DNA from: Methanosaeta sp. PtaB.Bin039 | GTDB lineage: Archaea; Halobacteriota; Methanosarcinia; Methanotrichales; Methanotrichaceae | Reading direction: 5' to 3' | Assembly: GCA_002067795.1 (NCBI GenBank) | Contig: MVQI01000073.1 | Location: 1 to 60,109, forward strand | DNA: 60,109 nt | Position numbers and translations under genes: made by a program | Part shown: one piece after another, positions 3,739 through 55,181 of the stretch | How positions within the stretch are numbered: the first letter of the stretch is position 1 | Layout: each line of letters starts with the position of its first letter | Notes under the pieces: generated by a model | Databases searched by the model: none | Seen by the model: the letters and a program-made list of their open reading frames with translations, nothing else | What the model was told of the DNA's origin: nothing

Positions 3739-6700
3739 ATGTTCCCAAAAGAAATTTCTATGGTATATTTAATATTGTGTTTATTATTTTCATGTTCACA
3801 TGCCATAGAAATCGGCTTTTCTGCGGGGGACAATGGCGAATACGTCGGCATCAGCGATGATTATCAAGTCGATGAAGAGGTAGAAGTGAGGGAGGAAGCT
3901 TCAGCTGGTTTTGGAGCCAGTCCTTCGATAAGCGACTCCAGGATAATATCTGGCACAGGCGATGCTAAGATAAGACAGAGTCTTTCCGGAAGGGGCGGTG
4001 GGGCCGACTATTCTGCTGCCAGTGATCTGGATGTGACAGGAGCTGCCAGCCTGCAATATGAGAGCAGTGCTTCTATCTCCCCGGCTTCATGTCAGCTTTC
4101 AGGCAGGACACTGGTAATTGATGGCCAGATAGCACAAATGGGATTGCATGCTCATCAGGGCGAATTCTATGGAGGTGTAAGCTCTCGAATTGAACAGGGA
4201 GATCTAAGAACCATGCAGTCTTTATCGGCAGGCAGCTGTGTTGACCTCTTCCAGGAGGTAGATGCCCTCGGCGATAGGGTCCAGACAAATGCATGGTTCT
4301 CTGGCTTTTCGGATGGCGTCGTAACCCAGGGTCATATCAAGCTGGATGCTACCGGCGATGCGATGTTCAAAGGATATCTCAAGTCCACTTCAGTAGGTCA
4401 GTACGCAGGGCAGGATATCCTCGTTGCCAAAGGAAATAAGGTATACACCGAGGATTTCAGGAAAAAAGGCGATTTTGAACAGATGATATCGAGAACGTCT
4501 AAGGATGGATCTATTAGCGGCTCCACAAGAACTGTGGATGATGGCCAAATAATTCAGGACGCAATCGACTTTGCGGATGACGGCGATACCATCAGCATCT
4601 GGAAAGGAGTCTATGAGGGCAATATCTCCATCGATAAATCGTTGCTCATAGAAGGCAATGGATCTGATTCTACCTTCATCGATGGAGGCGCACAATATCG
4701 AAATATACTCGTGGGCAGCGCAGATCCACTTGCCATTGTTACGTTATCCAAGATGTCCATCCGAAACGGCAGCGCTACCTTTGGAGCTGGCATTCTCAAC
4801 TATGCCGATCTCAGCGTAATCAACTGCAACATCACCCAAAATGTGGCGGCTGGAGCCGGAGGAGATGGAGTCCAGGGCTCAAGCGGTTATGGTGGAGGCA
4901 TATATAATAAAGGAAGGCTCAGCCTGATTGAGAGCAGCGTAACCGCAAATCTTGCCCAAGGCGGCAATGGAACAGGAGGGGCTGCCGGCGGAGATGGATA
5001 TGGTGGTGACGCATTTGGCGGAGGCTTATTCAACGACGCAGACGGCGTTATCTCCCTCTTCGATAGTGGAATAGTTGAGAACACTGCTATTGGCGGCGAT
5101 GGCATCGGATCCAATGGTTATGGTGGCGACGGCCTTGGCGGAGGAATCTTTAGCCAGGGAACTATCTCGGCGATGACCAACATTGATGTCACTGGCAACA
5201 TTGCCCAGGGCGGAACCGGAAATGGCGGGAGCAGCAATATCATTGGATCCAATGGTTACGGTGGCGATGGTCTTGGCGGAGGAATCTTTAGCCAGGGAAC
5301 TATCTCGGCGATGACCAACGTTGATGTCACTGGCAACATTGCCCAGGGCGGAACTGGAAATGGCGGGAGCAGCAATATCATTGGATCCAATGGTTACGGT
5401 GGCGATGGCCTTGGCGGAGGAATCTTTTGCCAGGGAACTATCTCGGCGATGACCAACGTTGATGTCACTGGCAACATTGCCCAGGGCGGAACTGGAAATG
5501 GCGGGAGCAGCAATATCATTGGATTCGATGGTTATGGCGGCGATGGCCTTGGCGGAGGAATCTTTTGCCAGGGAACTATCTCGGAGATTACTGGCGCTGA
5601 GGTCAGTGAAAACATTGCTCAAGGCGGAAACGGCACTGGTGGAAACGGCATCGGAACGGCAGGAATAGACGAGCAGAATGGCGGAAATGGCCGCACATCT
5701 AAACGATCGAGGAGTATTCCTATTTGGACACCCTGGGAAACATATTATATAACCGTATCTTGGGATGCAGAAGGTACACCTGGAGGCGCTGGAATCCCAG
5801 GTACCAGCGGTGGTTTGGGCTTTGGCGGCCAGGGAATTGGCGGCAATGGTTCGGGTGGCGGCATCTACAACATAGGCGAAATGACGCTTAGTGCCAGCAG
5901 AATCACCGATAACATTGCCCGAGGCGGATCAGGAATCGGCGGCTCTGGCATTGGAGGCAGCGGCGGTCAGGGCGGAGATGGCGGCAATGGTGGAACCGGA
6001 GGCGGCGGCAGCTTCTGGTCGGCAGGCTACGGATATCGCGGTGGAGTTGGGGGCGAAGGCGGCGATGGTGGCAACGGCGGCGATGGCCACGGCGGAGACG
6101 GGACTGGCGGCATTGGAATCGGCGGCGGAATATTCAATAACGGTTCAATTGAACTTGGCGCAAGCGGAATAGAAGGAAATATTGCCCAGGGCGGTTCGGG
6201 CATCGGCGGCGACGGTGTAGGTGGGATCGGCGGTTCAGGCGGAAACGGCGGACATGGAGGAAGTGGCGGAAGCGGCCTGCTCTCCGGAGATAGCGGAGGC
6301 AATGGAGGGGGCGGCGGCAATGGCGGCTCCGGAGGATCTGGCTTCGGAGGAAATGGAACTGGCGAAGCTGGAATCGGTGGCGGCATTTATACCGAGGTGG
6401 AATTAGAGGGAATTGGCACCATTGCCTATAACAAAGCTCTGGGCGGCGATGGCATCGGAGGCAACGGGACAGGGGGCCAGAGCGAACAGGGTGGAGATGG
6501 TGGCAACGGCGGCAATGGCGGAAGCGGAGGCTTCGGACGGGGCACTGGCGGTGCAGGCGGATCTGGTGGCAGCAGCAATCAGGCGGGAGCTGGAGTTGGT
6601 GGATCTGGCGTCGGTGGCGATGCTCTGGGTGGAGGAATATTCTGGCCGGATGATCTAAAGCTCACTGATTTGGATATTATCGGGAACATCGCTGAAGGCG

Positions 6701-9700
6701 GCAGAGGAAGTGGCGGCTTTGGCATAGGGGGTTTTGTAGGCGCAAGCGGCCATGATGGTCGATACGGCAGCAATGGCTGGGATCTTGGCACTATATTGTT
6801 CAAAGGTGATAACGGCCAAGACGGAAAAGCCGGCCCTGATGGCTCAGGAGGGGGCATGGGGGTGGGAGGTTCAGCCATGGGTGGAAGCGCATTCGGAGGC
6901 GGCATTTTTGGCCTTGCCAATGTTACCCTGACTGGAATTATACTCTCATCTAACATTGCCAGTGGCGGGATGGCCTCTGGTGGAATGGGCCGAGGTGGCA
7001 ATGGCAGCAATGGCATCCAGGGTGAGGATGGGGGCGATGCATCGTGGGCTGTTGGCGTCTCAGGCGATGGAGGTGATGGCGGAAGCGGAGGAGATGGCGG
7101 GGAGGGCGGAGAGGGCATTGGAGGCAATGCTGTTAGCGGAAGCGGACTTGGTGGTGGAATTTACGGCCTTGGAGATCTGACCTCAAGCTATACCACGATC
7201 TCAGAGAATATCGCCAGAGGTGGGGACAGTATCGGTGGCCAGGGAAATGGAGGCTTTGGTGGCGAAGGTGGAGCAGGGGGCACTGGCGGCGATGCGTCGT
7301 GGGCCGTTGGCGTCTCAGGCGACGGAGGCAGTGGCGGCAGTGGTGGAGATGGCGAGGAGGGCGGAATTGGCACTGGAGGCAATGCTGTTAGCGGGAGCGG
7401 AGTTGGAGGAGGAATCTACGGCCTTGGAGATCTGACCTCAAGCTATACCACGATCTCAGATAATATGGCCAGAGGCGGGGACAGTTTCGGCGGCCAAGGA
7501 AATGGAGGCGATGGCGGCGAAGGTGGAGCAGGGGGCACTGGCGGCGACGCGTCGTGGGCCGTTGGCGTCTCAGGCGACGGAGGCAGCGGCGGCAGTGGTG
7601 GAGATGGCGGTGCCGGCGGAGAGGGCATTGGAGGCAATGCAGTTAGTGAAACCGGAATTGGGGGCGGAATTTACGGCCTTGGAGATCTGACCTCAAGCTA
7701 CACCACGATCTCAGATAATATGGCCAGAGGCGGGGACAGTTTCGGCGGCCAAGGAAATGGAGGCGATGGTGGTGCCGGTGGCAGTGGCGGAAATGGCCGC
7801 AACGGGGTATGGGCAATTGGCGTCTCAGGCCGCGGGGGTAGCGGTGGCAGCGGTGGAGATGGGGGTGCCGGCGGAGAGGGCCTTGGAGGCAATGCAGTTA
7901 GTGAAACCGGAATTGGGGGCGGAATTTACGGCATTGGAGATCTCAGCTTAAGCGACACCACGATCTCAGATAATGTGGCCAGAGGCGGGGACAGTCTCGG
8001 CGGCCAAGGAAATGGAAGCGACGGTGGCGAAGGCGGCACAGGTGGCATTGGCGGCAAAGGTGGATGGGCAGTCATTCTTGCTGGATCCGGCAGTGGGGGC
8101 GGCGCTGGCGGCAGAGGCGGCAACAGTGGATCTGGTATTGGCGGCAATGCCGTTGGAGGTCAAGCCTCAGGTGGTGCCATCTATAATTACGGCAATCTGA
8201 CTATCACAGATGGAGTTCTTACTGCAAATGTCGCCCAAGGTGGAGACGGGAGAGGCGGAGACGGCAATAGCGGCCAGGGTGGAGAAGGAGGCCAGGGTGG
8301 AACAGGCGGTGACGGTGGCACCGTGTATGGTCTCTTTGTGGCCTGCACAGGAGGCGCCGGTGGCGCAGGAGGCGTTGGCGGCAATAGCAGCCCTGGCATT
8401 GGTGGCAATGCCGTTGGAGGTCAAGCCTGGGGCGGTGCTATCTATAATTCAGGCAATCTGACTATTACAGATGGAGTTCTTACCGCAAATGTCGCCCAAG
8501 GTGGAGACGGGAGAGGCGGGGACGGCAATAGCGGCCAGGGTGGAGAAGGAGGCCAGGGTGGAACAGGCGGTGACGGCGGCCCCGTGTATGGACTGCTGTT
8601 CGGCTGGAATGGAGAAGGCGGGGATGGGGGCTTTGGCGGTGCCGGTGGCTTGGGCATGATCGGCATAGGCGGAGGCAGTCATGGCGGAGATGCCTATGGT
8701 GGCGCTATATTCAGCCATGGCCCAACCTTGTCAATGACAGACTGTGTGGTCACAGAGAATGCAGCCAAAGGCGGAAATAGCACTGGCGGTGCTGGACTTG
8801 GCGGCGATGGCGGAGACGGCGGCATTGGTGGCAGGGGTGGCGATGGAGGCAACGGAGTGTCGGCCTTGCCGTTCGCCGGCGTAAGCATTGGCTTGAGCGT
8901 TCATTCCGAAGGAGGCGATGGGGGCAATGGAGGAAAGGGAGGCAATGGTGGGGAAGGACTAGGTGGCGATGCAGTTGGTGGAACCAGCTATGGCGGCGGC
9001 ATTTACAGCAATGGCTCAATGAGATTTTCCGGCGAGAATGAAGATGATGTCAGCAGAAACATCGCCGAAGGAGGCTTTGGCGCCGGCGGTCTTGGCCAGG
9101 GTGGCAAGGGCGGCAGAGGCGGTCAGGGAGGAGATGGTGGAAGTGGCCGGAACATAGGCATTGGACTCGCCTTTGGCATTGGCGCGCAAGTTCCATTTGG
9201 AGTAGGAGTCGGCTATGGAGAAGGGCGTGGTGGGGATGGGGGCCAGGGTGGTTTGGGCGATATCGGAGGACTTGGCAGAGGTGGCAATGGAACCGGAGGC
9301 TGCGCCCTTGGCGGAGGAATTTTCGGCCCTGGAGATTCTACTATAGTAGGTAGCGATATCACAGAGAATATTGCAGAAGCAGGAAACGGCATAGGAGGAG
9401 ACGGCATAGGGGGAATCGGAGGCGCAGGAGGCCAGGGCGGAAATGGTGGCAGCGGCGAAGGCTGGAGCATAGGCATCGGCTTTGTAACTGGGGATGCTGG
9501 CGCCATGGGTCTGGCAGCGGGAGGAATAAGCGGCCTTATCGAACGCAGGGCTGGAAGCGGAGGCGATGGTGGGGAAGCAAGCCAAGGGGGCGAAGGTGTG
9601 GGAGGAGATGGAACTGGAGGACATGCCTTCGGTGGAGCTGTATACAATAGCGGCGAGAGTCTATACGGGAACCATCTCAATGTCTCCTGTAATGTCGCCT

Positions 9701-12700
9701 TGGGAGGCAATGGCATCGGAGGCACCGGGGAAGGAGGGATGGGTGGAATTGGCGGCAATGGCGGTCAGGGCAGCAGAGGTTCCGATCGAAATATCGGAGT
9801 TGGCATTGCATTTGTTGGCAAGGGAACCGCCATTGGATTTGGCTTCAGCAACGCCCTCGGAGGTAGCGGTGGTGAGGGCGGAGATGGAGGCTATGGGGGC
9901 AACGGAACAGGAGGCTGCGGCATCGGCGGTGACAGTCTGGGCGGCGGCATCTCCAATTCGGGCACTCTCGAATTGAGATACTCTGATTTTATTGACAACA
10001 TCGCAAGAGGTGGAATTGGCGCTGGCGGTGCAGGCATTGGTGGCGATGGAGGTTGTGGTGGGATCGGCGGAGCCGGCGGCAAAGGAGACGGGATAGGGAT
10101 TGGCCTTGGGATAGGTTCGAGCTGGCCACCCAAAGCGATGGGTGGCGCATTTGGCTTGGCCCTGGGAATAGGGGGTGACGGAGGAAGCGGCGGTCATGGC
10201 GGAGATGGAGGCAGAAGCATAGGAGGCCCAGGAGTAGGTGGAGATGGGTCCGGAGGCGGAATATACAATGAAGGCTCGTTGCTGATGGAGAGTTCTTCTG
10301 TCACAAATAACATAGCTGAAGGCGGTATCGCATTTGGCGGAGCAAGCATAGGCGGCAACGGCGGCAATGGAGGATATGGCGGTTCAGGCGGCGAGGGATA
10401 TGCTGTTGGCGGAGGCATAACTCTCCTTCTCGATACGTCCAGCGCTGGTGTCGGAGTAGCGTTAGGCTTTGGCGGCAATGCGGAGAGTGGCGGCCTCGGT
10501 GGAAACGGCGGCAATAGCTCCGGAGGCGATGGATTTGGGGGCTGTGGACTCGGCGGCGGCATCCGTACGAGCCAGGGCACCTTTGAAGTGGCCAACAGTT
10601 CCTTCACAGATAATTTTGCCAAAGGTGGCAATGGATTCGGCGGACATAGCATCGGAGGCTGGGGCGGGCAAGGCGGCCAAGGCGGCGAAGGCGGAAAGAG
10701 CACTGGCATTGGCGCCCATACACTTGGAACCGTCCCGAAAAGAACCGAGTGGAACGGAATTACATTGGATTACAGTTACATACCATCCCTGAATCTCGAC
10801 CCAGGCAAAAATAGTTTTGGACTTGGCATTGCCGGCTTGCCATTCTCCATCCCACTATTTGGGTCACACGGCAACGCCGGAAGCGGTGAATCGGGAGGCC
10901 GCGGTGGCTATAGCACAGGCGGAAATGGGATTGGCGGCAATAGCTATGGTGGAGGCATATTAAGCGAAGGAAATTCGATATCGAACAATATTAAGATAAT
11001 CAAGAATGCCGCTTTAGGTGGAGAAGGCGTCGGAGGCAATGCCGATGGAGGCCGAGGTGGCATTGGCGGAAATGGCGGAAGTGGCGGCAATAGCGATGGC
11101 TCAGGAATCGACGATGGTATCAGTGTAGATCTTTATATATTTTCTCTTGGAATAAAAGGCAAGAAGGGCGTGGGATCGGGCATCGGCGGTTACGGCGGCA
11201 CAGGCGGCATTGGCGGCGATGGAGTCACCGGCATCGGCGGTCTGGGAACAGGTGGCGACAGCATGGGTGGCGGCATTTCCATCCTTGGCGGCTCCCTGGA
11301 TCTGACCGATTCCATGATAATTGGAAACATTGCGGAAGGTGGCGAAGGAAGCGGCGGCAATGGTTCAGGTGGAAGCGGAGAAGATGCCGGAAGCGGCGGC
11401 ATTGGCGGCACAGGCAAAGCCAAAGGCAAGTTGGATGTACTTGAGCCCTATATGCCAAAGGTACCTGTTAACCAGTATGTTACCATTTCTATCGGCCTTA
11501 AATGCAATTTAGGCGGCATTGGCATAGGTGGAGCCGGCGGTGACGGGAGCGATGGCGGCATAGGTGGCGACGGCATCGGAGGCGTCGGCACCGGTGGGTT
11601 AGGTTTGGGTGGCGCAGTCTACAATAAGGGCAAATTAAATGTGAATGATAGCATTATCTCCGGAAATATTGTGAGAGGCGGCGACGGCATTGGAGGCAAT
11701 GGCACCGGAGGACGCGGTGGAAATGGCAGCTCTGGAGCCGATGGTGGCCAGTCGGCTGCACCCTTAGGTTTGGGAGTTATTGGTGGATTTGGCTTCGGTT
11801 ATCCGAATGTGATCGCTTTCAACTTTAGTGCAAGCTTTGATGTCGGAATTAGTGGTGGACTGATTGGTGGCAATGGCGGCGATGGTGGTGACGGCGGATA
11901 TGGCAGGGGTGGCAACGGTATCGGCAGCTATGGATCAGGCGGCGGAATCTATAATAATGGATTAATGAGCATGGAGAACACCACAATCATCGACAGCAGT
12001 GCAGAGAGCGGTAACGGTATCGGCGGATATGGCTATGGTGGAGAGAATGGAATTGCAGGAATACATGGCAGCAGTGCAGAATTATCGTTTAGCATTAAAG
12101 AGACCTTGCTTGCCGAGATTAATATCTTTAAAATATTCCAGCTGAGAGAAAAGGCAACCCTTCCCATCTATGAGGGATCCATAAGCGTGCTGGACCCAAA
12201 GGATGGTACAAATGGCATCAAGAGATCAGGCACAAATGGAGTGGGCTTCCACCAAATTGGCAATGGAGGCGGCATTGCCAATCAGGCGGATGGGGTGATG
12301 CAATTAAACGGCAGCAATGTCTCACAAAACATAGCAGCATATGGTGGCGGTATTTATAACGCCGGCTTAATGAATGTGACGTACAGCAACATATCATGGA
12401 ATGAGGCATATAGCGGATCAGGCATCTACAATGTCCGGCCTGGCAGATTTGACTTGGGTGCCAGCAGAATCTTCAACAATTCGGCCACAGGAAACGGCGG
12501 CGGAATCTACAATTTCGGCATGATGAATGTGACGGACAGCAACATATCTTGGAATGAGGCATATAGCGGATCAGGCATCTACAATGATGAAATTAGCAGT
12601 CTGAACTTATCCTCCAGCCAAATCATCGAAAACAATGCCAGCAAATACGGTGGTGGCATCTGTAATATCGGCTATCTATGGCTGAGAACCGGTACCAGCA

Positions 12701-12825
12701 TTAAATGGAATCGGGCAGACTACGGTGGAGGCGTTTACGAGCTGGTTGAGCCGTTGGTGAATAGTAGCACTGTGGAAGAGAATTTAGCTCGCATCGAGGG
12801 TGATGATTTCTACCGACCCTATTAG
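3739..12825 (+). CDS. Giant exported glycine-rich right-handed beta-helix protein
   Basis: A 3028-residue protein. Residues 1-22 are a signal peptide (VYLILCLLFSCSHA core). Residues about 23-260 form a unique N-terminal domain with one pair of close Cys. About 267-320 has the classic parallel beta-helix entry pattern (IQDAIDFADDGDTISI, then VYEGNISI and LLIEGNG). From about residue 349 there are roughly 36 repeats of a GGGIYNxGxLxLxxSxIxxNIAxGG-type coil. In the first 29 or so the coils are separated by 30-70-residue (GGX)n loops; the last seven (about 2841-3020) are compact and resemble polymorphic-membrane-protein coils. Some loops carry hydrophobic GIGIGLxFG inserts. There is no transmembrane anchor or PGF-CTERM at the end. 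It is probably a surface or sheath-associated adhesin-like protein; that role is inferred. Several repeat blocks are nearly identical at DNA level. A GAGG Shine-Dalgarno precedes the ATG. Confidence 0.9.
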   Translation: MFPKEISMVYLILCLLFSCSHAIEIGFSAGDNGEYVGISDDYQVDEEVEVREEASAGFGASPSISDSRIISGTGDAKIRQSLSGRGGGADYSAASDLDVTGAASLQYESSASISPASCQLSGRTLVIDGQIAQMGLHAHQGEFYGGVSSRIEQGDLRTMQSLSAGSCVDLFQEVDALGDRVQTNAWFSGFSDGVVTQGHIKLDATGDAMFKGYLKSTSVGQYAGQDILVAKGNKVYTEDFRKKGDFEQMISRTSKDGSISGSTRTVDDGQIIQDAIDFADDGDTISIWKGVYEGNISIDKSLLIEGNGSDSTFIDGGAQYRNILVGSADPLAIVTLSKMSIRNGSATFGAGILNYADLSVINCNITQNVAAGAGGDGVQGSSGYGGGIYNKGRLSLIESSVTANLAQGGNGTGGAAGGDGYGGDAFGGGLFNDADGVISLFDSGIVENTAIGGDGIGSNGYGGDGLGGGIFSQGTISAMTNIDVTGNIAQGGTGNGGSSNIIGSNGYGGDGLGGGIFSQGTISAMTNVDVTGNIAQGGTGNGGSSNIIGSNGYGGDGLGGGIFCQGTISAMTNVDVTGNIAQGGTGNGGSSNIIGFDGYGGDGLGGGIFCQGTISEITGAEVSENIAQGGNGTGGNGIGTAGIDEQNGGNGRTSKRSRSIPIWTPWETYYITVSWDAEGTPGGAGIPGTSGGLGFGGQGIGGNGSGGGIYNIGEMTLSASRITDNIARGGSGIGGSGIGGSGGQGGDGGNGGTGGGGSFWSAGYGYRGGVGGEGGDGGNGGDGHGGDGTGGIGIGGGIFNNGSIELGASGIEGNIAQGGSGIGGDGVGGIGGSGGNGGHGGSGGSGLLSGDSGGNGGGGGNGGSGGSGFGGNGTGEAGIGGGIYTEVELEGIGTIAYNKALGGDGIGGNGTGGQSEQGGDGGNGGNGGSGGFGRGTGGAGGSGGSSNQAGAGVGGSGVGGDALGGGIFWPDDLKLTDLDIIGNIAEGGRGSGGFGIGGFVGASGHDGRYGSNGWDLGTILFKGDNGQDGKAGPDGSGGGMGVGGSAMGGSAFGGGIFGLANVTLTGIILSSNIASGGMASGGMGRGGNGSNGIQGEDGGDASWAVGVSGDGGDGGSGGDGGEGGEGIGGNAVSGSGLGGGIYGLGDLTSSYTTISENIARGGDSIGGQGNGGFGGEGGAGGTGGDASWAVGVSGDGGSGGSGGDGEEGGIGTGGNAVSGSGVGGGIYGLGDLTSSYTTISDNMARGGDSFGGQGNGGDGGEGGAGGTGGDASWAVGVSGDGGSGGSGGDGGAGGEGIGGNAVSETGIGGGIYGLGDLTSSYTTISDNMARGGDSFGGQGNGGDGGAGGSGGNGRNGVWAIGVSGRGGSGGSGGDGGAGGEGLGGNAVSETGIGGGIYGIGDLSLSDTTISDNVARGGDSLGGQGNGSDGGEGGTGGIGGKGGWAVILAGSGSGGGAGGRGGNSGSGIGGNAVGGQASGGAIYNYGNLTITDGVLTANVAQGGDGRGGDGNSGQGGEGGQGGTGGDGGTVYGLFVACTGGAGGAGGVGGNSSPGIGGNAVGGQAWGGAIYNSGNLTITDGVLTANVAQGGDGRGGDGNSGQGGEGGQGGTGGDGGPVYGLLFGWNGEGGDGGFGGAGGLGMIGIGGGSHGGDAYGGAIFSHGPTLSMTDCVVTENAAKGGNSTGGAGLGGDGGDGGIGGRGGDGGNGVSALPFAGVSIGLSVHSEGGDGGNGGKGGNGGEGLGGDAVGGTSYGGGIYSNGSMRFSGENEDDVSRNIAEGGFGAGGLGQGGKGGRGGQGGDGGSGRNIGIGLAFGIGAQVPFGVGVGYGEGRGGDGGQGGLGDIGGLGRGGNGTGGCALGGGIFGPGDSTIVGSDITENIAEAGNGIGGDGIGGIGGAGGQGGNGGSGEGWSIGIGFVTGDAGAMGLAAGGISGLIERRAGSGGDGGEASQGGEGVGGDGTGGHAFGGAVYNSGESLYGNHLNVSCNVALGGNGIGGTGEGGMGGIGGNGGQGSRGSDRNIGVGIAFVGKGTAIGFGFSNALGGSGGEGGDGGYGGNGTGGCGIGGDSLGGGISNSGTLELRYSDFIDNIARGGIGAGGAGIGGDGGCGGIGGAGGKGDGIGIGLGIGSSWPPKAMGGAFGLALGIGGDGGSGGHGGDGGRSIGGPGVGGDGSGGGIYNEGSLLMESSSVTNNIAEGGIAFGGASIGGNGGNGGYGGSGGEGYAVGGGITLLLDTSSAGVGVALGFGGNAESGGLGGNGGNSSGGDGFGGCGLGGGIRTSQGTFEVANSSFTDNFAKGGNGFGGHSIGGWGGQGGQGGEGGKSTGIGAHTLGTVPKRTEWNGITLDYSYIPSLNLDPGKNSFGLGIAGLPFSIPLFGSHGNAGSGESGGRGGYSTGGNGIGGNSYGGGILSEGNSISNNIKIIKNAALGGEGVGGNADGGRGGIGGNGGSGGNSDGSGIDDGISVDLYIFSLGIKGKKGVGSGIGGYGGTGGIGGDGVTGIGGLGTGGDSMGGGISILGGSLDLTDSMIIGNIAEGGEGSGGNGSGGSGEDAGSGGIGGTGKAKGKLDVLEPYMPKVPVNQYVTISIGLKCNLGGIGIGGAGGDGSDGGIGGDGIGGVGTGGLGLGGAVYNKGKLNVNDSIISGNIVRGGDGIGGNGTGGRGGNGSSGADGGQSAAPLGLGVIGGFGFGYPNVIAFNFSASFDVGISGGLIGGNGGDGGDGGYGRGGNGIGSYGSGGGIYNNGLMSMENTTIIDSSAESGNGIGGYGYGGENGIAGIHGSSAELSFSIKETLLAEINIFKIFQLREKATLPIYEGSISVLDPKDGTNGIKRSGTNGVGFHQIGNGGGIANQADGVMQLNGSNVSQNIAAYGGGIYNAGLMNVTYSNISWNEAYSGSGIYNVRPGRFDLGASRIFNNSATGNGGGIYNFGMMNVTDSNISWNEAYSGSGIYNDEISSLNLSSSQIIENNASKYGGGICNIGYLWLRTGTSIKWNRADYGGGVYELVEPLVNSSTVEENLARIEGDDFYRPY
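5107..5658 (+). repeat. Four tandem 138-bp (46-aa) repeats inside the giant gene
   Basis: Units begin at 5107, 5245, 5383 and 5521. Each encodes a YGGDGLGGGIF beta-helix coil, an xGTIS strand, and a NIAxGGxGxGG loop. The first three units differ by only a few bases, the last diverges in its second half. The exact in-frame period indicates recent duplication by recombination or slippage. Confidence 0.9.
7033..8052 (+). repeat. Four tandem 255-bp (85-aa) repeats inside the giant gene
   Basis: Units begin at 7033, 7288, 7543 and 7798. Each carries WAVGVSG or a close variant, a GGX loop, GGNAVS, a GGGIYGLGDLT coil, and TTISxNxARGGDS. The first three are nearly identical in DNA; the fourth is more diverged (WAIGVSG, LSLSDTTIS). 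Confidence 0.85.
8143..8664 (+). repeat. Two tandem 261-bp (87-aa) repeats inside the giant gene
   Basis: Units begin at 8143 and 8404. Each starts GGNAVGGQA, continues with GGAIYN, GNLTITDGVLTANVAQGG, and a GGDGRGGDGNSGQGGEGG loop. The first half of the two units is almost identical at DNA level. Confidence 0.85.
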
Positions 12826-12834
12826 GATGGAAGA

Positions 12835-13737
12835 ATGCCGAAATACTTCGTTGTTCTGCTGATCTTAACAGCACTCGTAGCCAGCGCCGCTGCAGCCAGC
12901 TGGACCGGATTTGTGAGGACCGACTCCGGATCCTGGTCCATCTCCAGGGAGAGCTGCAACGTGAGCTTCATCTATGAGCAGTCTGTTGAGGGGCAGATAT
13001 CGCCAGTGGACTACCACGGCAGAACCTTGAGTCCCTATTATTCTTCCTATACCGATGTGAATCTAAATGATGTACGTGTGGGCGAGAGAACTGCTGCATT
13101 GCAGGGCAGATACAGCAGCCAGGGTCAGCTCAAATTGCAGTCCAGAACCAATGGCTCGGTGGACATGGTAATCTACAAACCATCAGGAACCGACCTATAT
13201 ACAATCGACTTTTACGAGGTGTGGCCTGTAAACCTGAGCTACGACAGCAGCATGACCTATTCCGGACGGGAGATAAACAGCCGCGACTTTCTGGGCAACA
13301 ACAGGGATTATATTGGTGCCAGCTTCCTCTACAATCGGGAGCTTTCAAAAGATAGCAGCCTAAATATGAGCCTTGAGAGGATGAATGCCACTGTAGTGGC
13401 CAACGACGAGGCCATTTATCAGGCCGATGTCATGGCCACGAGAGACACCAAATACAGGCTAAATTCACATAGCACAGGCATTGCTAGCCTCAGGCATATG
13501 CAGATCGGACCCGGAGACGAGATCCTGACTGAGGGCGACGAGCGGTTCGTTGGCGTATACGATCTGGTCAGGAGCATAGGCATGGGATCGCGCTTTGAGA
13601 ACGTGGATATCGCTGATGACGAGATAGAATGGCTGCCATGCTGTCTTTCGGGCTTTGCCGGCATGGCACCTGCCGATCAGAAGGCTCTCGGATCGGCCAG
13701 GGGTATCTTTGACTGCACATGCTTCGAGGTTCCCTAA
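12835..13737 (+). CDS. Exported companion protein with CC/CxC C-terminal module
   Basis: A 300-residue exported protein starting 10 nt after the giant gene, almost certainly on the same transcript, with GGATGGA as a possible ribosome site. Residues 1-20 are a signal peptide (VVLLILTALVASAAAAS). The mature body is rich in beta-strand and N-glycosylation sequons (for example NVS, NLS, NMS, NAT). The last 40 residues contain WLPCC, then GFAG, then GIFDCTC. The same module ends the exported protein at 54124-55137, so it is a shared domain and not chance. Four closely spaced Cys outside the cell suggest disulfides or metal binding. No database family recognised. Its tight linkage suggests it helps assemble or anchor the giant protein (inference). 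Confidence 0.8.
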   Translation: MPKYFVVLLILTALVASAAAASWTGFVRTDSGSWSISRESCNVSFIYEQSVEGQISPVDYHGRTLSPYYSSYTDVNLNDVRVGERTAALQGRYSSQGQLKLQSRTNGSVDMVIYKPSGTDLYTIDFYEVWPVNLSYDSSMTYSGREINSRDFLGNNRDYIGASFLYNRELSKDSSLNMSLERMNATVVANDEAIYQADVMATRDTKYRLNSHSTGIASLRHMQIGPGDEILTEGDERFVGVYDLVRSIGMGSRFENVDIADDEIEWLPCCLSGFAGMAPADQKALGSARGIFDCTCFEVP

Positions 13738-13924: not shown

Positions 13925-14719
13925 TTAGGGCATCGTGCTGTTGGCGGCAATCGCCTTATCAAAGGCGTCAACTGCATCCTGATATCTGCCTGCGGCGTTC
14001 AACATCAGTCCCATATTGTTCCAGGCCTCTGAGTAATTGGGATCAGCTATGGTTGCATTCTCGAATGCCTCTATGGCTTCCTGGGTCTGGTTGATGCTTG
14101 CCAGAGCCAGCCCCTTATAATTCCAGGCCATGGCGAATGAAGGATCGATCCTCACTGCATTATCAAAGGCTGCCACTGACTCTCTGGAATTGCCCAGGCT
14201 GAGAAGTGCCAGCCCCTTGTAATACCATGTCGTGGAGATCGTTGGGTCCAGCCTTATCGCCTCATCAAAGGATTCTATGGACTCGACGATCTGGCCAAAT
14301 CTCAGGAGAGAAAAGCCCTTGTTGTTCCAGGCTTTCACATTTTTGGGGTTTATCTCCAGAGATTGATTAAATGCATCTATGGCCTGCGGGTAGCTGCCAA
14401 GGGCAGCCAGAGCCAGACCTATATTATTCCAAGCTGCCCATGCAAAATCCGGCTCGATCGATATGACCTTCTCAAAGGCCTCTATTGACTCGTTGTACAT
14501 CTCCAGATTGAGCAGATCAAGTCCCAGGTTGTTCCATGCCATGTAGGCACTTGGATTTTCCCTGGTTGCATTTCGATATGCTTCTGCAGCTCCCTGATAG
14601 TCTCCCAGGTTATCGAGAGCTATGCCTTTGTTCATCCAGTAGTCTGCCATATTGCTCTGTGCAAAGGAAGGAAGCGCCAGCGTGGTAATTAGTAAAAGGC
14701 TAACAACTGATCTCTTCAT
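13925..14719 (-). CDS. Exported tetratricopeptide-repeat protein
   Basis: A 264-residue protein with a signal peptide (residues 1-20, VVSLLLITTLALPSFA core) followed by about seven 34-residue TPR units spanning the rest. Each unit repeats the pattern AWNNxGLxLxxLGxYxxAIxAFxxAIxxxP (for example AWNNIGLALAALGSYPQAI). TPR arrays are protein-protein interaction scaffolds. Export makes this one a candidate scaffold at the cell surface. It is monocistronic and convergent with the giant-gene operon; the 354 bases upstream (14720-15073) hold no supported gene. Function beyond binding is not readable. Confidence 0.9.
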   Translation of the reverse strand: MKRSVVSLLLITTLALPSFAQSNMADYWMNKGIALDNLGDYQGAAEAYRNATRENPSAYMAWNNLGLDLLNLEMYNESIEAFEKVISIEPDFAWAAWNNIGLALAALGSYPQAIDAFNQSLEINPKNVKAWNNKGFSLLRFGQIVESIESFDEAIRLDPTISTTWYYKGLALLSLGNSRESVAAFDNAVRIDPSFAMAWNYKGLALASINQTQEAIEAFENATIADPNYSEAWNNMGLMLNAAGRYQDAVDAFDKAIAANSTMP

Positions 14720-30627: not shown

Positions 30628-31287
30628 CTATTCCACTTTTAGCGAGCGGCTGACTCTCTTATAGACCTTTTTAGCTGCCCGCCCGGCTGTCAGGCGAGTC
30701 GGAGTCCGATGGCCGATAAAATCCGTGCGTCCCCGTCGGATCTCCTCAAGCGCCTCCTCTTCGGTTGCCGCATCCAGAAGCGTAATTCCCAGGCCCACAG
30801 TCTCCACCATGTGGGAATCGCTACCGGCGACCATTGGCATGCCCCTTTTCCTCGCCTCTATCTTCGCTCTGAAGTTGGATATGCCGAAAAGGTACTTGGA
30901 GTTGTAGACCTCCACCGCATCAACTGGAGGCATCCTACCTATGGCATGGCGGAAGAGGTGATATGGGTGGGGCAGGACGGTTATCCCCCCCAGATCGCGG
31001 ACCGCCTCAATCGTCGCCTCAGGAGACATGCCAAGGGGAGGCAGCTGGTCCACACCAAGTATCAGGAGGTGGCCTTCAGAAGTATTGACCTCAGCACCCT
31101 GGATGATTATCAGGTCCGGATATCTCTCGACGGCTATGCGCTTGGCTTCCAGCGATCCGGCAAGGGTATTGTGGTCGGTGATGGCCAGGCCGTTTAGCCC
31201 CATCTTTCTGGCCTCTGCCAGGATCTGGTGGACCCTGGCTTTTCCGTCAGAATGATCGGAGTGGATGTGGAGATCAAAGCGCATCAT
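30628..31287 (-). CDS. PHP-domain metal-dependent phosphoesterase
   Basis: A 219-residue protein. [17 protein letters not shown] is the first PHP metal motif; [27 protein letters not shown] and [11 protein letters not shown] supply the remaining His/Asp/Glu ligands. PHP proteins hydrolyse phosphoester bonds of small molecules or nucleic acids; the substrate here is not evident. Its start (ATG 31287 or 31284) overlaps the end of the aconitase-family gene, making it the distal gene of the ATP-citrate-lyase operon. The C-terminal 30 residues are basic ([15 protein letters not shown]). Confidence 0.9.
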
Positions 31288-32566
31288 GATCTTGCGGGTC
31301 GGTGACAAATCCCTTCCAGGCGGTCAGGGCTGCGGTGGCAGGCGAGGCAAGATAGACCCTGCCTCCCCTGCCCATGCGTCCGGGGAAGTTCCTGTTTGAC
31401 GTTGAGAGACAGACCTCTCCATCTCCGAGTACTCCCATGTGGCCGCCGAGGCAAGGGCCGCAACCTGGCGTGCCGATCATTGCTCCGGCCTTGACGAGGT
31501 CCTCGATTATCCCCAAATGAAGCGCTGATAACAGAACCTCTCTTGATGCCGGTATGACCAGTGTCCGCACCGATACCCGTCTATTGCCCAGGATGCGTGC
31601 TGCCACATCCAGATCCTCCAGCCTGCCGTTGGTGCAGGTACCTATGAATACCTGGTCCACAGGCATGCCTTGCAGATCCCCCACAGGTCTGACGTTGTCC
31701 ACCCTGAACGGCTCGGCGATCATCGGCTCGGCGTCGGTTACGTCCAGCTCCAGGCAGTCCTGGTAGGATCCTGGATCTGATAGCACCCTGTCGTATGGGA
31801 CTGCTGTCCGGTCAGCCAGGTACTTGTCGGTTAGCCGATCTGGCGGGACCACGGCTGCCTTTGCCCCCATCTCGACGCCCATGTTGCAGAGGGTCATCCT
31901 GCTCGCAATGCTCAGGCATTCTGGCACGGGACCGGTGAACTCGACGGTCTTGTAGGTGGCTCCGTCTGCCCCCAGCCGGCCGATCACCATCAAAGCGAGG
32001 TCCTTGGCATAAACCCCGCGGGGAAGCTGTCCTGTCATGCGAACCTCCAGGGTCTCTGGCACCTTGAACCAGAGCCGGCCCCGGGAGTATATCTCGGCCA
32101 TATCGGTAGCTCCAACACCTGTCCCCAGAGCCCCAAGTGCCCCGTACGTGCATGAATGGGAGTCAGCGCCAACAACGAGAGTCCCCGGAAGGACAAAGCC
32201 CATCTCCGGCAGCACCTGATGACAGATTCCACAGCCGCAATCAAACAGGTTGGAAATGCCTTGCTTTCTTGCCCATGCCCTGACCTCGGCCTGCAGGGTT
32301 GCGGTCAGATCCGTATTGGCCGGGCAGAGGTGGTCGAACGGTATGACTATTCTTGACGGATCCCATACCTGGTCAGATCCCATCTCCGAGAACGCCTTGA
32401 TGGCCAGGACCGATGTCCCGTCATGAGACATGGCGCAGTCGACTCTCGCCTCGACTATCTGGCCTGCTGAAGCCGGCGATCCAGAGGCCCGGGAAAATAT
32501 CTTCTCGCTTAGGGTTGGCAGGAGGACCCCTCCGGAAAGAGGATCTTTAAGGCCCCCTTTACTCAT
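31274..32566 (-). CDS. Aconitase-family large subunit (LeuC/HacA type)
   Basis: A 430-residue dehydratase with an iron-sulfur active site. Cysteine ligands: the Cys in [13 protein letters not shown], and both in [16 protein letters not shown] and [11 protein letters not shown] are substrate-binding motifs. Family members are 3-isopropylmalate dehydratase (LeuC), homoaconitase (HacA) and, in some archaea, the enzyme used as aconitase. Neighbouring ATP-citrate lyase genes favour a citrate/isocitrate role (inference). The small subunit needed by this class is not adjacent. It overlaps the preceding aclA gene by 8 nt and the PHP gene that follows. Confidence 0.9.
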
Positions 32567-34412
32567 CCCACCGAGGGAGCATGAAGGCTATGTCTTCAGG
32601 CGGGTGGCGGTACAGACGGGCACCCTGTCGCTTCTGGTCCAGGACATGGCCTATGATGCCTATGCTGCGGCCCAGCGCGAAGAGCCCGTTCAGATATCCG
32701 TACCTTAAAACGTCATCTATATCCTGCTTGGTAAATGTATCGCATGAGCTCATCAGGTCGATGAACAGGATGCCGATGCAGCCATCCACGTTGAGTATCA
32801 AGTTGCCCTTCTTGGCCGTGGTCAGCCTCTCCACCTGTAGCGCATAGTTCAGCAGATCGGTCCGGGCGAAGTTGCGACGGGCGAAGTCTATCAGAAGCTG
32901 GACCCGCTTGTCCGGATTTTTCACGCTCTTTATCCGGTGGCCTATTCCAGGTATATTGATTCCCTTCTGCTTCATCTCGGAGACGAACTGCTCAGGAGTC
33001 AGTCCGGAATCGGATGCCCTCTTGAACTCCCTGGCTGCATCATCGATAGCTCCGCCGAAGCGGGGACCGATCGTCAGAAGACCGCTGGCCAGAGAGGTCA
33101 CCAGATCTTTTCCTGCACATGATGCTACGATGGCGTTATGGGCCGCAGAGACTGAAGGGCCGTGGTCTGCCACTATCTGAATCACTATCTCGATGAACTG
33201 GGCAGCATAGTCGGGCAACTCCTTTTTAAACCAGAGAAGGCCGATAACACCGCCGATGCCGATCCTGCTGTCCATGACCTCGGTGATGGGCTTTCCTGCG
33301 TATAGCAGCTCCTCACCCCGGTCGTCTGAGATCGTACAGATGAAGGTTGTTGGCCGTCTTATCAGTCCGGTCGATAGGGCCTTGCTGTAGTCCGCGGGGA
33401 TCTTCGGGGCTTCCGGTTCTGCTGCCTGCTTGACTTTCCCCTCGGCGACCAGCCTGTCATAGACCATCTTTATCTGATCCCCATAGCCATCGAAGCTGTC
33501 CGGTACATTGGCTCCAGCGTCCCGGAAGGCCTGGTTCTTGGCAGCAGCGGTCTCCATTGCAGTGTCTGCCTTGGCTCCTGCATGACCGAACTGGACGCTT
33601 CCAGGCAGGAAAGATGCGCAGGTTCCGGTTACCCAGGCCACGAGAGGCTTGCTGATCTTTCCCTCCTTCAGAGCCTTGATTATCTGGTACTCGTCCTCGC
33701 CTCCCAACTCGCCCAGGCAGGCTATCATTGCGATATCCAAATTGGCCTCATATCGCATGATGTGGTCAAGCATGGTCGAGCCGGGGTAGCGATCGCCTCC
33801 AGTGGCTATGCCCTCTCGAATTCCGTTCGAGTTCCTGGAGATTATGTTGAACGCCTCGTTGAGCATCCCGCCGGACTTGGATACAAAGCCAACACAACCC
33901 GGCCGATAGAGCCTTGAAGCGATGATGTTCTCGGTGGTCCCGGCGGTATTCCCGATCTTGAAAGCGCCTGCAACCATCCCGCCAACCGTCGCAGGCCCTA
34001 TTATGACCTTGCCGGCTTTCTTAGCAGAGGCTGCCATGATCCTGGCCTGCCGTTCCGGCACGCCTTCGGCAATTACAGCCACCGTCTTGATGCTGGGCTG
34101 GTTCAGGGCATCCATGGTGGTCTCAAAGGCCGACCTGTGAGAGGCGAAGTTCACCATGACGTCGGCTTCGGGATGCCTGGCAACTGCATCGGAGATCGTC
34201 TTGTACATTGGCAGCAGGATCTCCCCGGTCCCCCAGAAAGCTTTGTGAATGCCGGCCCGGGTGGGATTGATTATGGCTGATACGCTGGGCTGGTCCCTCT
34301 TGCAGACGTAATCGAAGTCCAGCATCCTCTGAATGGCATTAGTCTGATAACCATACACAAAGGCCATTGTATTCCTGTCAAATAGCAGGTAATCTGGTCT
34401 CTTCTGGCTCAT
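32559..34412 (-). CDS. aclA: ATP-citrate lyase alpha subunit (AclA, citrate-synthase-like part)
   Basis: A 617-residue subunit. The N-terminal two thirds resemble succinyl-CoA synthetase alpha, with the catalytic phospho-His in [11 protein letters not shown]; the C-terminal third is a citrate-synthase-like citryl-CoA lyase domain ([13 protein letters not shown], then [16 protein letters not shown]). Together with AclB it cleaves citrate, ATP and CoA to oxaloacetate, acetyl-CoA, ADP and phosphate, or runs in reverse. Matches the two-subunit enzyme structurally characterised from Chlorobium and Methanothrix soehngenii. Length is normal. Second gene of the operon, 54 nt after aclB. Confidence 0.96.
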
Positions 34413-34466
34413 TCTCCCTCTCCTTAAGCTATCCCATAAACAGCCACAAATCCTTTTTCCGCTCCC

Positions 34467-35729
34467 TCAAGCCTTCTCCAGGGCCAAAGGCACTATCCTG
34501 GTCATATGGGTCTCAGGCCCGTAGACATCGATTGGGATCCCCAGCTCCTCACCCAGAGATCGCATGAGACGCAGCCCCTCCTCGTAGTTTGGCCCGCCCC
34601 TCCTCACATAGATCTTTATGCCGTGCTCCTTCAGACGGGCCTGATACTCCTTGATAGCCATCACAATTCCCTTGAAGGTGCTTGCCACATCGGTGAAGTT
34701 GGCTATGGCGCCTCCTATCAGCAGTATCTTACCCTGCGGGTGTCTGCTCTTGGTCATCAGGTCCAGGATCGTGCACGTATAGCGGTAGGTGTCCTCGGTA
34801 TTGGGATCGCCGCTGTACTCGCCGTAATTGCACAGCTCCGAGGAGTGGCCCAGGTCGCAGATCGTATCCGTGTAGATCACGCTGGCACCGCCGCCTGCGA
34901 TCATGGTCCAGACCCGACCCGACGGATTCAGAATGGTCAGCTTAAGAGAGGCACCAGTCCTGGCATCCAGCTCCTTTATGTAGAGCTCCTCTCTGGAGAG
35001 GGCCCTGCCGAAAGGCTCGGGAAACTCAAGGTCGCCCCATGTCTTTTTCTGCCAGTAAGCCTCGGCATCATCCAGCTTGGCGACCAGATCCAGGGGTACT
35101 ATGGACCCGTCGCAAAGCGTGAAGGGATTGATCTCGAGATAGGTGAATCCCAGATCAACGTAAAACCGGTAAAGGGCTTCGAGGAACGATGCTACCTGAT
35201 CGGCCCGCAGCTCGGCCTTATCTGCCACAGCCTTCTTAAGATCTATCCCGTCAAGACCCTGCAGAACATGCACCGGGATCTCAATTACCTGGTCCCACCT
35301 GCTCTCCACCGAGATGCCTCCCTGGGTGGAGAAATAGATTATGTCGTAATCGTTGCTGGCCCTGATGGCGACGTAGTACTCCTCTTTGTGAGGTATGTAG
35401 GGTTCTATCAGGAAATGATCCAGCCTGCCGCTCACGCCACCGATGACGACCTCGCTGTTCATCTTGGAGCCTATGAACTTCCTGGCCTGCTCGAAGTCGA
35501 CGTTCAGGAGCACCAGCCCGTGCAGCCCCCTCTTTCCGAACAGCTGGTCTGGCTTGACGACAAGCTTTCGGTCCAAAAGCCATGGATTCTGATCTGCCAG
35601 CCGGTCAAAATCGGTATCATGTCCGACTAAAACCACCTCGCCTTTATAATTGAAATCGGGCATGTAATCAGGCATAAACCGGGCAAGCAATCTCTTGGCA
35701 TCGAATTCCCTAATGCCTCTCTGCGCCAT
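34467..35729 (-). CDS. aclB: ATP-citrate lyase beta subunit (AclB, ATP-grasp part)
   Basis: A 420-residue subunit. The N-terminal ATP-grasp domain (KLVVKPDQLFGKRG, then YLEINPFTL, a metal-binding motif) and the C-terminal citrate-binding CoA-ligase domain (GGGASVIYTDTICDLG, LLIGGAIANFTDV) match AclB. It activates citrate as citryl-phosphate and transfers it to AclA. First gene of the operon aclB-aclA-aconitase family-PHP. AAGGTGG precedes the ATG at 35729. Transcribed divergently from a methyltransferase gene across the palindrome at 35774-35809. Confidence 0.96.
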   Translation of the reverse strand: MAQRGIREFDAKRLLARFMPDYMPDFNYKGEVVLVGHDTDFDRLADQNPWLLDRKLVVKPDQLFGKRGLHGLVLLNVDFEQARKFIGSKMNSEVVIGGVSGRLDHFLIEPYIPHKEEYYVAIRASNDYDIIYFSTQGGISVESRWDQVIEIPVHVLQGLDGIDLKKAVADKAELRADQVASFLEALYRFYVDLGFTYLEINPFTLCDGSIVPLDLVAKLDDAEAYWQKKTWGDLEFPEPFGRALSREELYIKELDARTGASLKLTILNPSGRVWTMIAGGGASVIYTDTICDLGHSSELCNYGEYSGDPNTEDTYRYTCTILDLMTKSRHPQGKILLIGGAIANFTDVASTFKGIVMAIKEYQARLKEHGIKIYVRRGGPNYEEGLRLMRSLGEELGIPIDVYGPETHMTRIVPLALEKA

Positions 35730-54123: not shown

Positions 54124-55131
54124 TCAGGGCTTATAGCGGTACACATCGTTTGGGTACTGGGCCATGGATGTGTTCCAGCTGGGCCGGAAGCTGGAGACTG
54201 CGGTCTCGCGGCAACTGCAATCGAAGATGCCGACCACTCCCGGGTATATTTTCTCGCTGTCCTTGATTCCGAAAAATCCGCCGGAGCAGCATGGCAGCCA
54301 GTCCTCGACGCTCTTGGCGCGGTACTTGACGAACTCGACGTTCATGTTCTTCTTCACGTGGAACGAGCCTATGTAGTTCGCATCCATCTCTATCAGGGCG
54401 TTCTTCCATGCCTCCTTGTGGCCATAAGCGGTGACCTTCTTTCCGCCTGACTTTCCTGTAAACTTCGAGAGGCGCGGATCCGCCATCAACTGGCCGAAGT
54501 GAAGGGTTCCTGCTGTCACGTCGTCCTCGATCCTCATGCCGAGATACCCTTTGCCGTCGGCCTTCTCAGTGGCAGCGGTGCAGTTAATATCGACGGCGAT
54601 ATCGCCGATATAACCCTTGGCATACTCGATCTGGTGATGCATCATGGCACCCTCCTGATAGCTCTTGGCAACGGTCTTATCCTTGAAGAGCGAGTTGTAC
54701 TGGATGGGGTTTCTGGAGTACCACCCGGTGCCGTAGCTGAAAGATACCGGGGCGTACACCATCTCGTTTTGCTTGATCATGGAGATCGTGCTGCTCGCCC
54801 CGACGAGGTTCTTGACCCATCCCTCCTTCCAGTCATAGACCCAATAGGATCCGCTGCCCGAAGACGTCTGCTCCGAGGAGATCAGATCGGCCTCGTCGAA
54901 GGTGCCTGATCCGTGCATGTACTCGTGCAGCGAGAGGTTGTTGGTATCTATCTTCTGCCAGACCATGACGTATCCCTCGCCTTCGACATCGGCCTGGTAG
55001 TTGTGTTTGTGCACAAACGGATACTTATCCGGATTAAAATCGAACTTTCCGGCAATGGCAGGGCCGGTTAGAATCAGCAGCGCGATGGCTGCTACCAGGA
55101 AACAATTGGCTCTTCCCACATCCTGTGACAT
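54124..55131 (-). CDS. Exported protein with CC/CxC C-terminal module
   Basis: A 335-residue exported protein. Signal peptide residues 1-27 (NCFLVAAIALLILTGPAIA). The body is beta-rich with a WYSRNPIQYNS motif; near the end DWLPCCSGGFFG and GIFDCSC recur from the protein at 12835-13737, followed by about 30 extra residues. One NCT sequon in mid-protein. Start: AGAGGG lies 6 nt before the ATG at 55131; ATG 55137 is also in frame. A TATA box (TTTATATAAC) at 55182-55191 and a T6 terminator frame it as a single-gene unit. Function unknown; probably cell surface. Confidence 0.82.
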   Translation of the reverse strand: MSQDVGRANCFLVAAIALLILTGPAIAGKFDFNPDKYPFVHKHNYQADVEGEGYVMVWQKIDTNNLSLHEYMHGSGTFDEADLISSEQTSSGSGSYWVYDWKEGWVKNLVGASSTISMIKQNEMVYAPVSFSYGTGWYSRNPIQYNSLFKDKTVAKSYQEGAMMHHQIEYAKGYIGDIAVDINCTAATEKADGKGYLGMRIEDDVTAGTLHFGQLMADPRLSKFTGKSGGKKVTAYGHKEAWKNALIEMDANYIGSFHVKKNMNVEFVKYRAKSVEDWLPCCSGGFFGIKDSEKIYPGVVGIFDCSCRETAVSSFRPSWNTSMAQYPNDVYRYKP

Positions 55132-55181
55132 ATTCATCCCTCTTGATACCTAGGCAAACGAGATGCTGGTAGCATTTATTG

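Follow-up and report, generated by a model that had tools for sequence, protein, structure and literature searches.

Contig C73 of the Methanosaeta sp. PtaB.Bin039 genome (2.45 Mb, 82 contigs, 96% complete), referred to below as the window over its full length of 60,109 nucleotides, carries at positions 3739-12825 (+) a single open frame of 3,028 codons coding for a protein of 3028 residues (the giant protein). It is followed, 10 nt past the stop codon, by a companion gene (12835-13737, +) coding for a secreted 300-residue protein. A preliminary description, made from the sequence alone, had read the 9-kb gene as coding for a signal peptide, a parallel beta-helix entry sequence and about 36 coils of the GGGIYNxG type, and these elements were all recovered: the frame is intact, the protein has a signal-peptide-like start, MFPKEISMVYLILCLLFSCSHA (residues 1-22, 3739-3804, +), the entry region (residues 257-348, 4507-4782, +) matches the start of the NosD model TIGR04247 over residues 272-368 (E value, E, 3.6e-9), and 36 coil starts were counted. 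Relatives of the N-terminal domain have a hydrophobic leader at the same place as the signal peptide, and secretion of the giant protein is presumably of the Sec type. The NosD match scores 35.7 bits against a curated cut-off of 300 and concerns the entry coils only; similar entry regions are found in genomes G009, G012 and G021.

Between the signal peptide and the entry region lies an N-terminal domain (residues ca. 23-215, 3805-4383, +), matched by profile A7 at 3805-4335 with E of 1.1e-59. The entry region leads into 29 beta-helix coils, 28 of them with a glycine-rich insert (residues 349-2842, 4783-12264, +), delimited by coil spacing, arm lengths and AlphaFold2 models, and then into seven plain C-terminal coils of 24-27 residues each (residues 2843-3028, 12265-12822, +). 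No C-terminal membrane anchor is visible: the protein ends in the plain coils with DDFYRPY and has no hydrophobic C-terminus. It is strongly acidic (isoelectric point 4.2, charge about -154 at pH 7), with Asp and Glu accounting for 28% of the X positions of its GGX triplets (X, any residue). The whole protein has no match in Pfam, a scan of its pieces gave sub-threshold matches only, and phmmer found no match among the sequences of the Protein Data Bank (PDB).

Coil starts were defined as G-(G/S/A)-(G/A)-(I/V/L), with GAGILN at residue 349 counted in. Most of the 36 coils begin with GG(G/A)(I/V/L), the conserved positions being G1, G2, G/A3, I4 and Y/F5; in 20 of the 36 ungapped coils position 20 is Asn, and three residues before it usually stands Ile, not Phe. 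The inserts range from 15 to 107 residues, five being short (15-21 residues) and 23 long (59-107 residues); the loops of 30-70 residues expected in about 29 coils are thus present coil by coil, but in 28 coils and with other lengths. Their description as built almost entirely of GGX triplets suits the arms, but not the whole inserts, which are 44% glycine and have a non-GGX tip in the middle. Strict runs of at least two GGX triplets hold 509 of the 1758 insert residues, compared with 163 ± 27 (maximum 254) in 1000 within-loop shuffles, and the probability that a glycine is followed by another is 0.64 at i+3 vs. 0.35 at i+1. Division of the 23 long inserts at the longest stretch devoid of a GG pair yields an outgoing arm, a tip and a returning arm. 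The returning arm is exactly 27 residues long in 13 of these inserts and the outgoing one has 19-27 residues in 18, while the tips, which measure 8-66 residues except for a longer one in the last insert, are variable between most modules and usually more hydrophobic than the arms. The lengths of neighbouring inserts correlate with r of 0.82 (shuffled 99th percentile, 0.40).

The array contains three near-identical 46-residue modules with short inserts (residues 467-604, 5137-5550, +; DNA identity 94-98%) and, as its most regular, equally spaced part, five tandem 85-residue modules (residues 1053-1477, 6895-8169, +), whose neighbours share 64-88% of amino acids, with ratios of nonsynonymous to synonymous differences per site (pN/pS) of 0.29-0.55. 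Between near-identical modules pN/pS lies at 0.16-0.55, below 1 in every case, which supports a protein sequence that is translated and under selection.

Structure prediction of a segment of three to five modules had been proposed as a check on the beta-helix. In an AlphaFold2 model of four modules (residues 1138-1503; mean predicted local distance difference test score, pLDDT, 89.7; predicted template modelling score 0.77), built from module-shifted copies aligned with two relatives, beta-helix coils with ordered arms are indeed predicted; coils and arms mostly exceed a pLDDT of 90 and the tips reach 65-75. Strands fall at the coil positions and short bridges in the first glycine triplets, and the remaining arm has no helix or strand assignment, as polyglycine-II would give. 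For the more divergent residues 1752-2197, with long tips and an alignment of nine rows, the pLDDT is 71, with coils and arms at about 72-92 and tips below 50. A Foldseek search with either model places the springtail polyglycine-II antifreeze protein 7jjv first (E of 6e-4 and 0.045), followed by beta-helix enzymes and adhesins. The beta-helix spine with polyglycine-II arms suggested at the outset is consistent with both models and with the Foldseek ranking; the matches are weak, and the polyglycine-II conformation of the modelled arms is putative.

A single-module profile (A3) found the same arrangement in five of 50 genomes of the family, spread over five of the 11 genera; in a sample of 393 genomes of the phylum, no other family gave a match. 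The assignment to a methanogen agrees with the nearest named relatives of the giant protein, a Methanothrix sp. and a Methanotrichaceae archaeon. The relatives comprise ca. 2330 residues in G009, over 5480 in G021, at least 2087 in G010 (cut by the contig end) and at least 844 in G012 (near a contig end). Ten modules in succession in the G021 protein are exactly 99 residues each, with an identity outside the shared glycines averaging only ca. 21%. Glycine-rich fragments at contig ends, directly 5' of companion genes, are present in G024 (L081:3-1364) and G418 (L082:4609-5277) and are similar to the C-terminal portion of the giant protein of G021; they suggest that assemblies break in such genes, so that five of 50 is a minimum. 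The N-terminal parts of the giant proteins of G021 (L033:16290-18045) and G010 (L038:4790-6810) are split over different frames, owing to either sequencing error or a real frameshift. A scan of genome contigs with the N-terminal region of the giant protein gave no match, and one with an alignment of the relatives' entry regions found three. Searches of plasmids and phages by tblastn with module queries gave none either, a result made uninformative by the low-complexity filter of BLAST. The same combination may also occur in bacteria, which may have proteins that join PMP-like coils to glycine-rich inserts.

The N-terminal domain and the companion are distributed more widely than the modules with glycine arms. 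The former occurs in 32 of the 50 family genomes and, among 295 genomes of the phylum, in this family only; it has no match in Pfam. Relatives of the companion, likewise without a Pfam match, are present in 49 of the 50, often several per genome, and their alignment (A6) reveals conserved CC and C-x-C motifs near the C-terminus. Profiles of both proteins gave nothing convincing against PDB sequences. Companion-profile matches appear in a few genomes of other families (G072, G194, G267 and others); the one in G072 is very strong (E of 1.8e-125) and possibly represents a transfer or a misbinned contig. In 12 of 43 companion loci, and also in G010 and G021, the gene directly 5' of the companion gene and in the same orientation codes for a protein with the N-terminal domain. 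The bodies of these upstream proteins are modules with glycine arms in the window, Ala/Gly-rich repeats in others, and plain GGGI coils in G410, where coils of this type without glycine arms precede the companion gene directly, at a contig end (L102:7365-7886). As these bodies differ, the array with glycine arms is one of several carried by a conserved system of N-terminal domain and companion. The C-terminal domain of the companion recurs in many family proteins of 300-350 residues, including a 337-residue protein without a Pfam match encoded in the window at 54124-55137 (-; shared domain at 54202-54426, E of 1.5e-12).

A single genomic slot common to all relatives was considered and rejected: the Hdr cluster adjoins the giant gene in the window and in G009, but is found on a separate contig in G010, G012 and G021. 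A gene for a TPR protein is situated beside the giant gene in the window (13925-14719, -), with similar ones in G021 (L033:18250-19041) and G010 (L038:3721-4521). Farther away, at 31274-35729 (-), there are three consecutive genes that may code for an aconitase-type protein and two ATP-citrate-lyase-like proteins.

The explanation we favour, if by a modest measure of confidence, is that the giant protein is a secreted extracellular structural protein, a long beta-helix bearing a polyglycine-II fin, which acts as a spacer or adhesive element of the surface or matrix. The anatomy of its sequence, the regularity of arms and tips, the relatives in other genera and the tandem gene pair are observed; its fold is a prediction, its extracellular role is likely, and its location and function are inferred. 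The N-terminal domain, common to other secreted proteins of these archaea, would be followed by one right-handed parallel beta-helix of about 36 coils. In each of 28 successive coils the chain would leave this helix at the equivalent turn, run outwards as a glycine-rich arm, form the tip and return as a second arm, similar in length to the first and nearly constant in it. It is well established that stacked beta-helix coils are spaced by about 4.8 Å and that packed polyglycine-II helices have nearly this spacing. Owing to this common spacing the arms of neighbouring coils could pack into a two-layered polyglycine-II fin, with the variable tips aligned along its outer edge; judging from the spacings, a fin of 28 arm pairs would be ca. 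13 nm long and ca. 7 nm wide. Such a protein, made together with its cysteine-containing companion, would probably act at the cell surface or within the extracellular matrix, either as a stiff spacer or as an adhesive element, whose contact edge would be formed by the tips. Adhesion or matrix building via this edge is the function that seems preferable. For the Methanothrix family, about whose sheath and surface partners little is known, they offer a testable secreted family of two genes.

Several points weigh against the polyglycine-II fin. The TM-scores (template modelling scores) to 7jjv are about 0.1 and the accompanying E values are modest, so that Foldseek supports a local geometry, not a match of fold. 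The alignments given to AlphaFold2 are made up largely of the protein's own module-shifted copies, along with two relatives, and the program may be biased towards known polyglycine-II bundles. Tandem duplication would also yield correlated insert lengths, and the version with glycine arms was found in only the five family genomes mentioned above.

The strongest competitor, though an unlikely one, retains the beta-helix coils and makes the inserts disordered, forming a flexible, hydrated acidic brush. The acidity of the protein and of the X positions would suit it, as would the low confidence of the tips in AlphaFold2 and the side loops of chlamydial Pmps, often unstructured in AlphaFold models (PMC11166332). 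Against a brush stand the near-constant arm length, the strict period of 99 residues kept in G021 despite divergence, and the high confidence that AlphaFold2 assigns to the arms but not to the tips. We consider it improbable that the giant protein is a component of the tubular sheath of Methanothrix or of its plugs, even though members of the order are sheathed, no plug or assembly protein has been identified, and disulfides contribute to the integrity of the sheath (PMC11576556), a point of contact with the conserved cysteines of the companion. Most family genomes lack the giant protein, and the core of the archaeal sheath (SH) proteins, formed by two six-stranded antiparallel beta-sheets (PMC11576556), differs in fold from the predicted coil array. 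An ice-binding protein of the polyglycine-II antifreeze type, to which the best solved-structure match points, is hardly credible, as the match is weak and reflects the polyglycine-II lattice only, and the exposed X positions are acidic and mixed. The already disfavoured reading as a phage tail-fibre or prophage adhesin related to gp38, a protein that combines a beta-helix with a polyglycine-II sandwich (PMC6851490), has a minimal chance in view of the lack of a match in PHROG, in phage records (a search limited by the low-complexity filter) and, for the entry-region and companion queries, in viral contigs, and of the cellular nature of the identified neighbours.

The favoured architecture, a beta-helix with a polyglycine-II fin, shares features with several known systems. 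In chlamydial Pmps long side loops branch off from one turn of the GGA(I/L/V) beta-helix (PMC11166332), and their GG(A/G)(I/L/V)...xxxN coils, with an FxxN motif, have partial counterparts in those of the giant protein. The best match of Chlam_PMP (PF02415) is below the cut-off (E of 0.085; 13.6 vs. 20.6 bits), the giant protein has no autotransporter beta-barrel (no Pfam barrel match), and the Pmp loops are not GGX arms. In mycobacterial PE_PGRS proteins, models of the PGRS "sails" arrange the GGX triplets in flat polyglycine-II sandwiches that are hydrophobic along one edge and acidic on their faces (PMC9436101). The giant protein has a GGX-repeat domain as well, with tips that are often hydrophobic and a strongly acidic composition; unlike PE_PGRS it lacks the PE domain (no Pfam match for the whole protein or its N-terminal 254 residues), and the edge of its sheet would be a beta-helix that the chain re-enters after each arm pair. 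The snow flea (2pne) and springtail (7jjv) antifreeze proteins form polyglycine-II bundles, as predicted for the arms, but are small and devoid of a beta-helix. The adhesin-like proteins of Methanobrevibacter smithii and Methanosphaera stadtmanae are surface proteins with a right-handed beta-helix, occasionally with Chlam_PMP repeats, and with membrane-anchoring and archaeal Big domains, glycine arms not being described in the available part of the source (PMC11532034); the giant protein has neither a Big-domain match in Pfam nor a hydrophobic C-terminus.

A solved precedent is gp38 of phage S16, in whose crystal structure (Dunne et al. 2018, as described in PMC6851490) two beta-helix turns extend into a polyglycine-II sandwich with variable distal loops, an arrangement like the one that the two models predict for the giant protein. 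gp38 has five coils and two extensions, of 18 and 77 residues, giving ten helices, compared with ca. 36 coils and 28 inserts here; the giant protein has no phage attachment domain, no phage context and no sequence match to it. The preliminary description had considered the combination undescribed in archaea, and the open-access literature yielded neither an archaeal case nor one spanning more than 20 successive coils; the combination itself has been solved in gp38. Only tentatively, and with doubt prevailing, can we propose that it is a novel archaeal architecture, a beta-helix mast whose two-layer polyglycine-II fin, with one arm pair for each coil, runs uninterrupted and in register along more than 20 of them, and which serves with a dedicated secreted companion as a surface building element of Methanotrichaceae. 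Compared with gp38, the new feature would be that more than 20 coils each bear an arm pair, and that they do so in archaea; if the predicted fold holds, a beta-helix can bear a polyglycine-II sheet over tens of coils, well beyond the small solved example.
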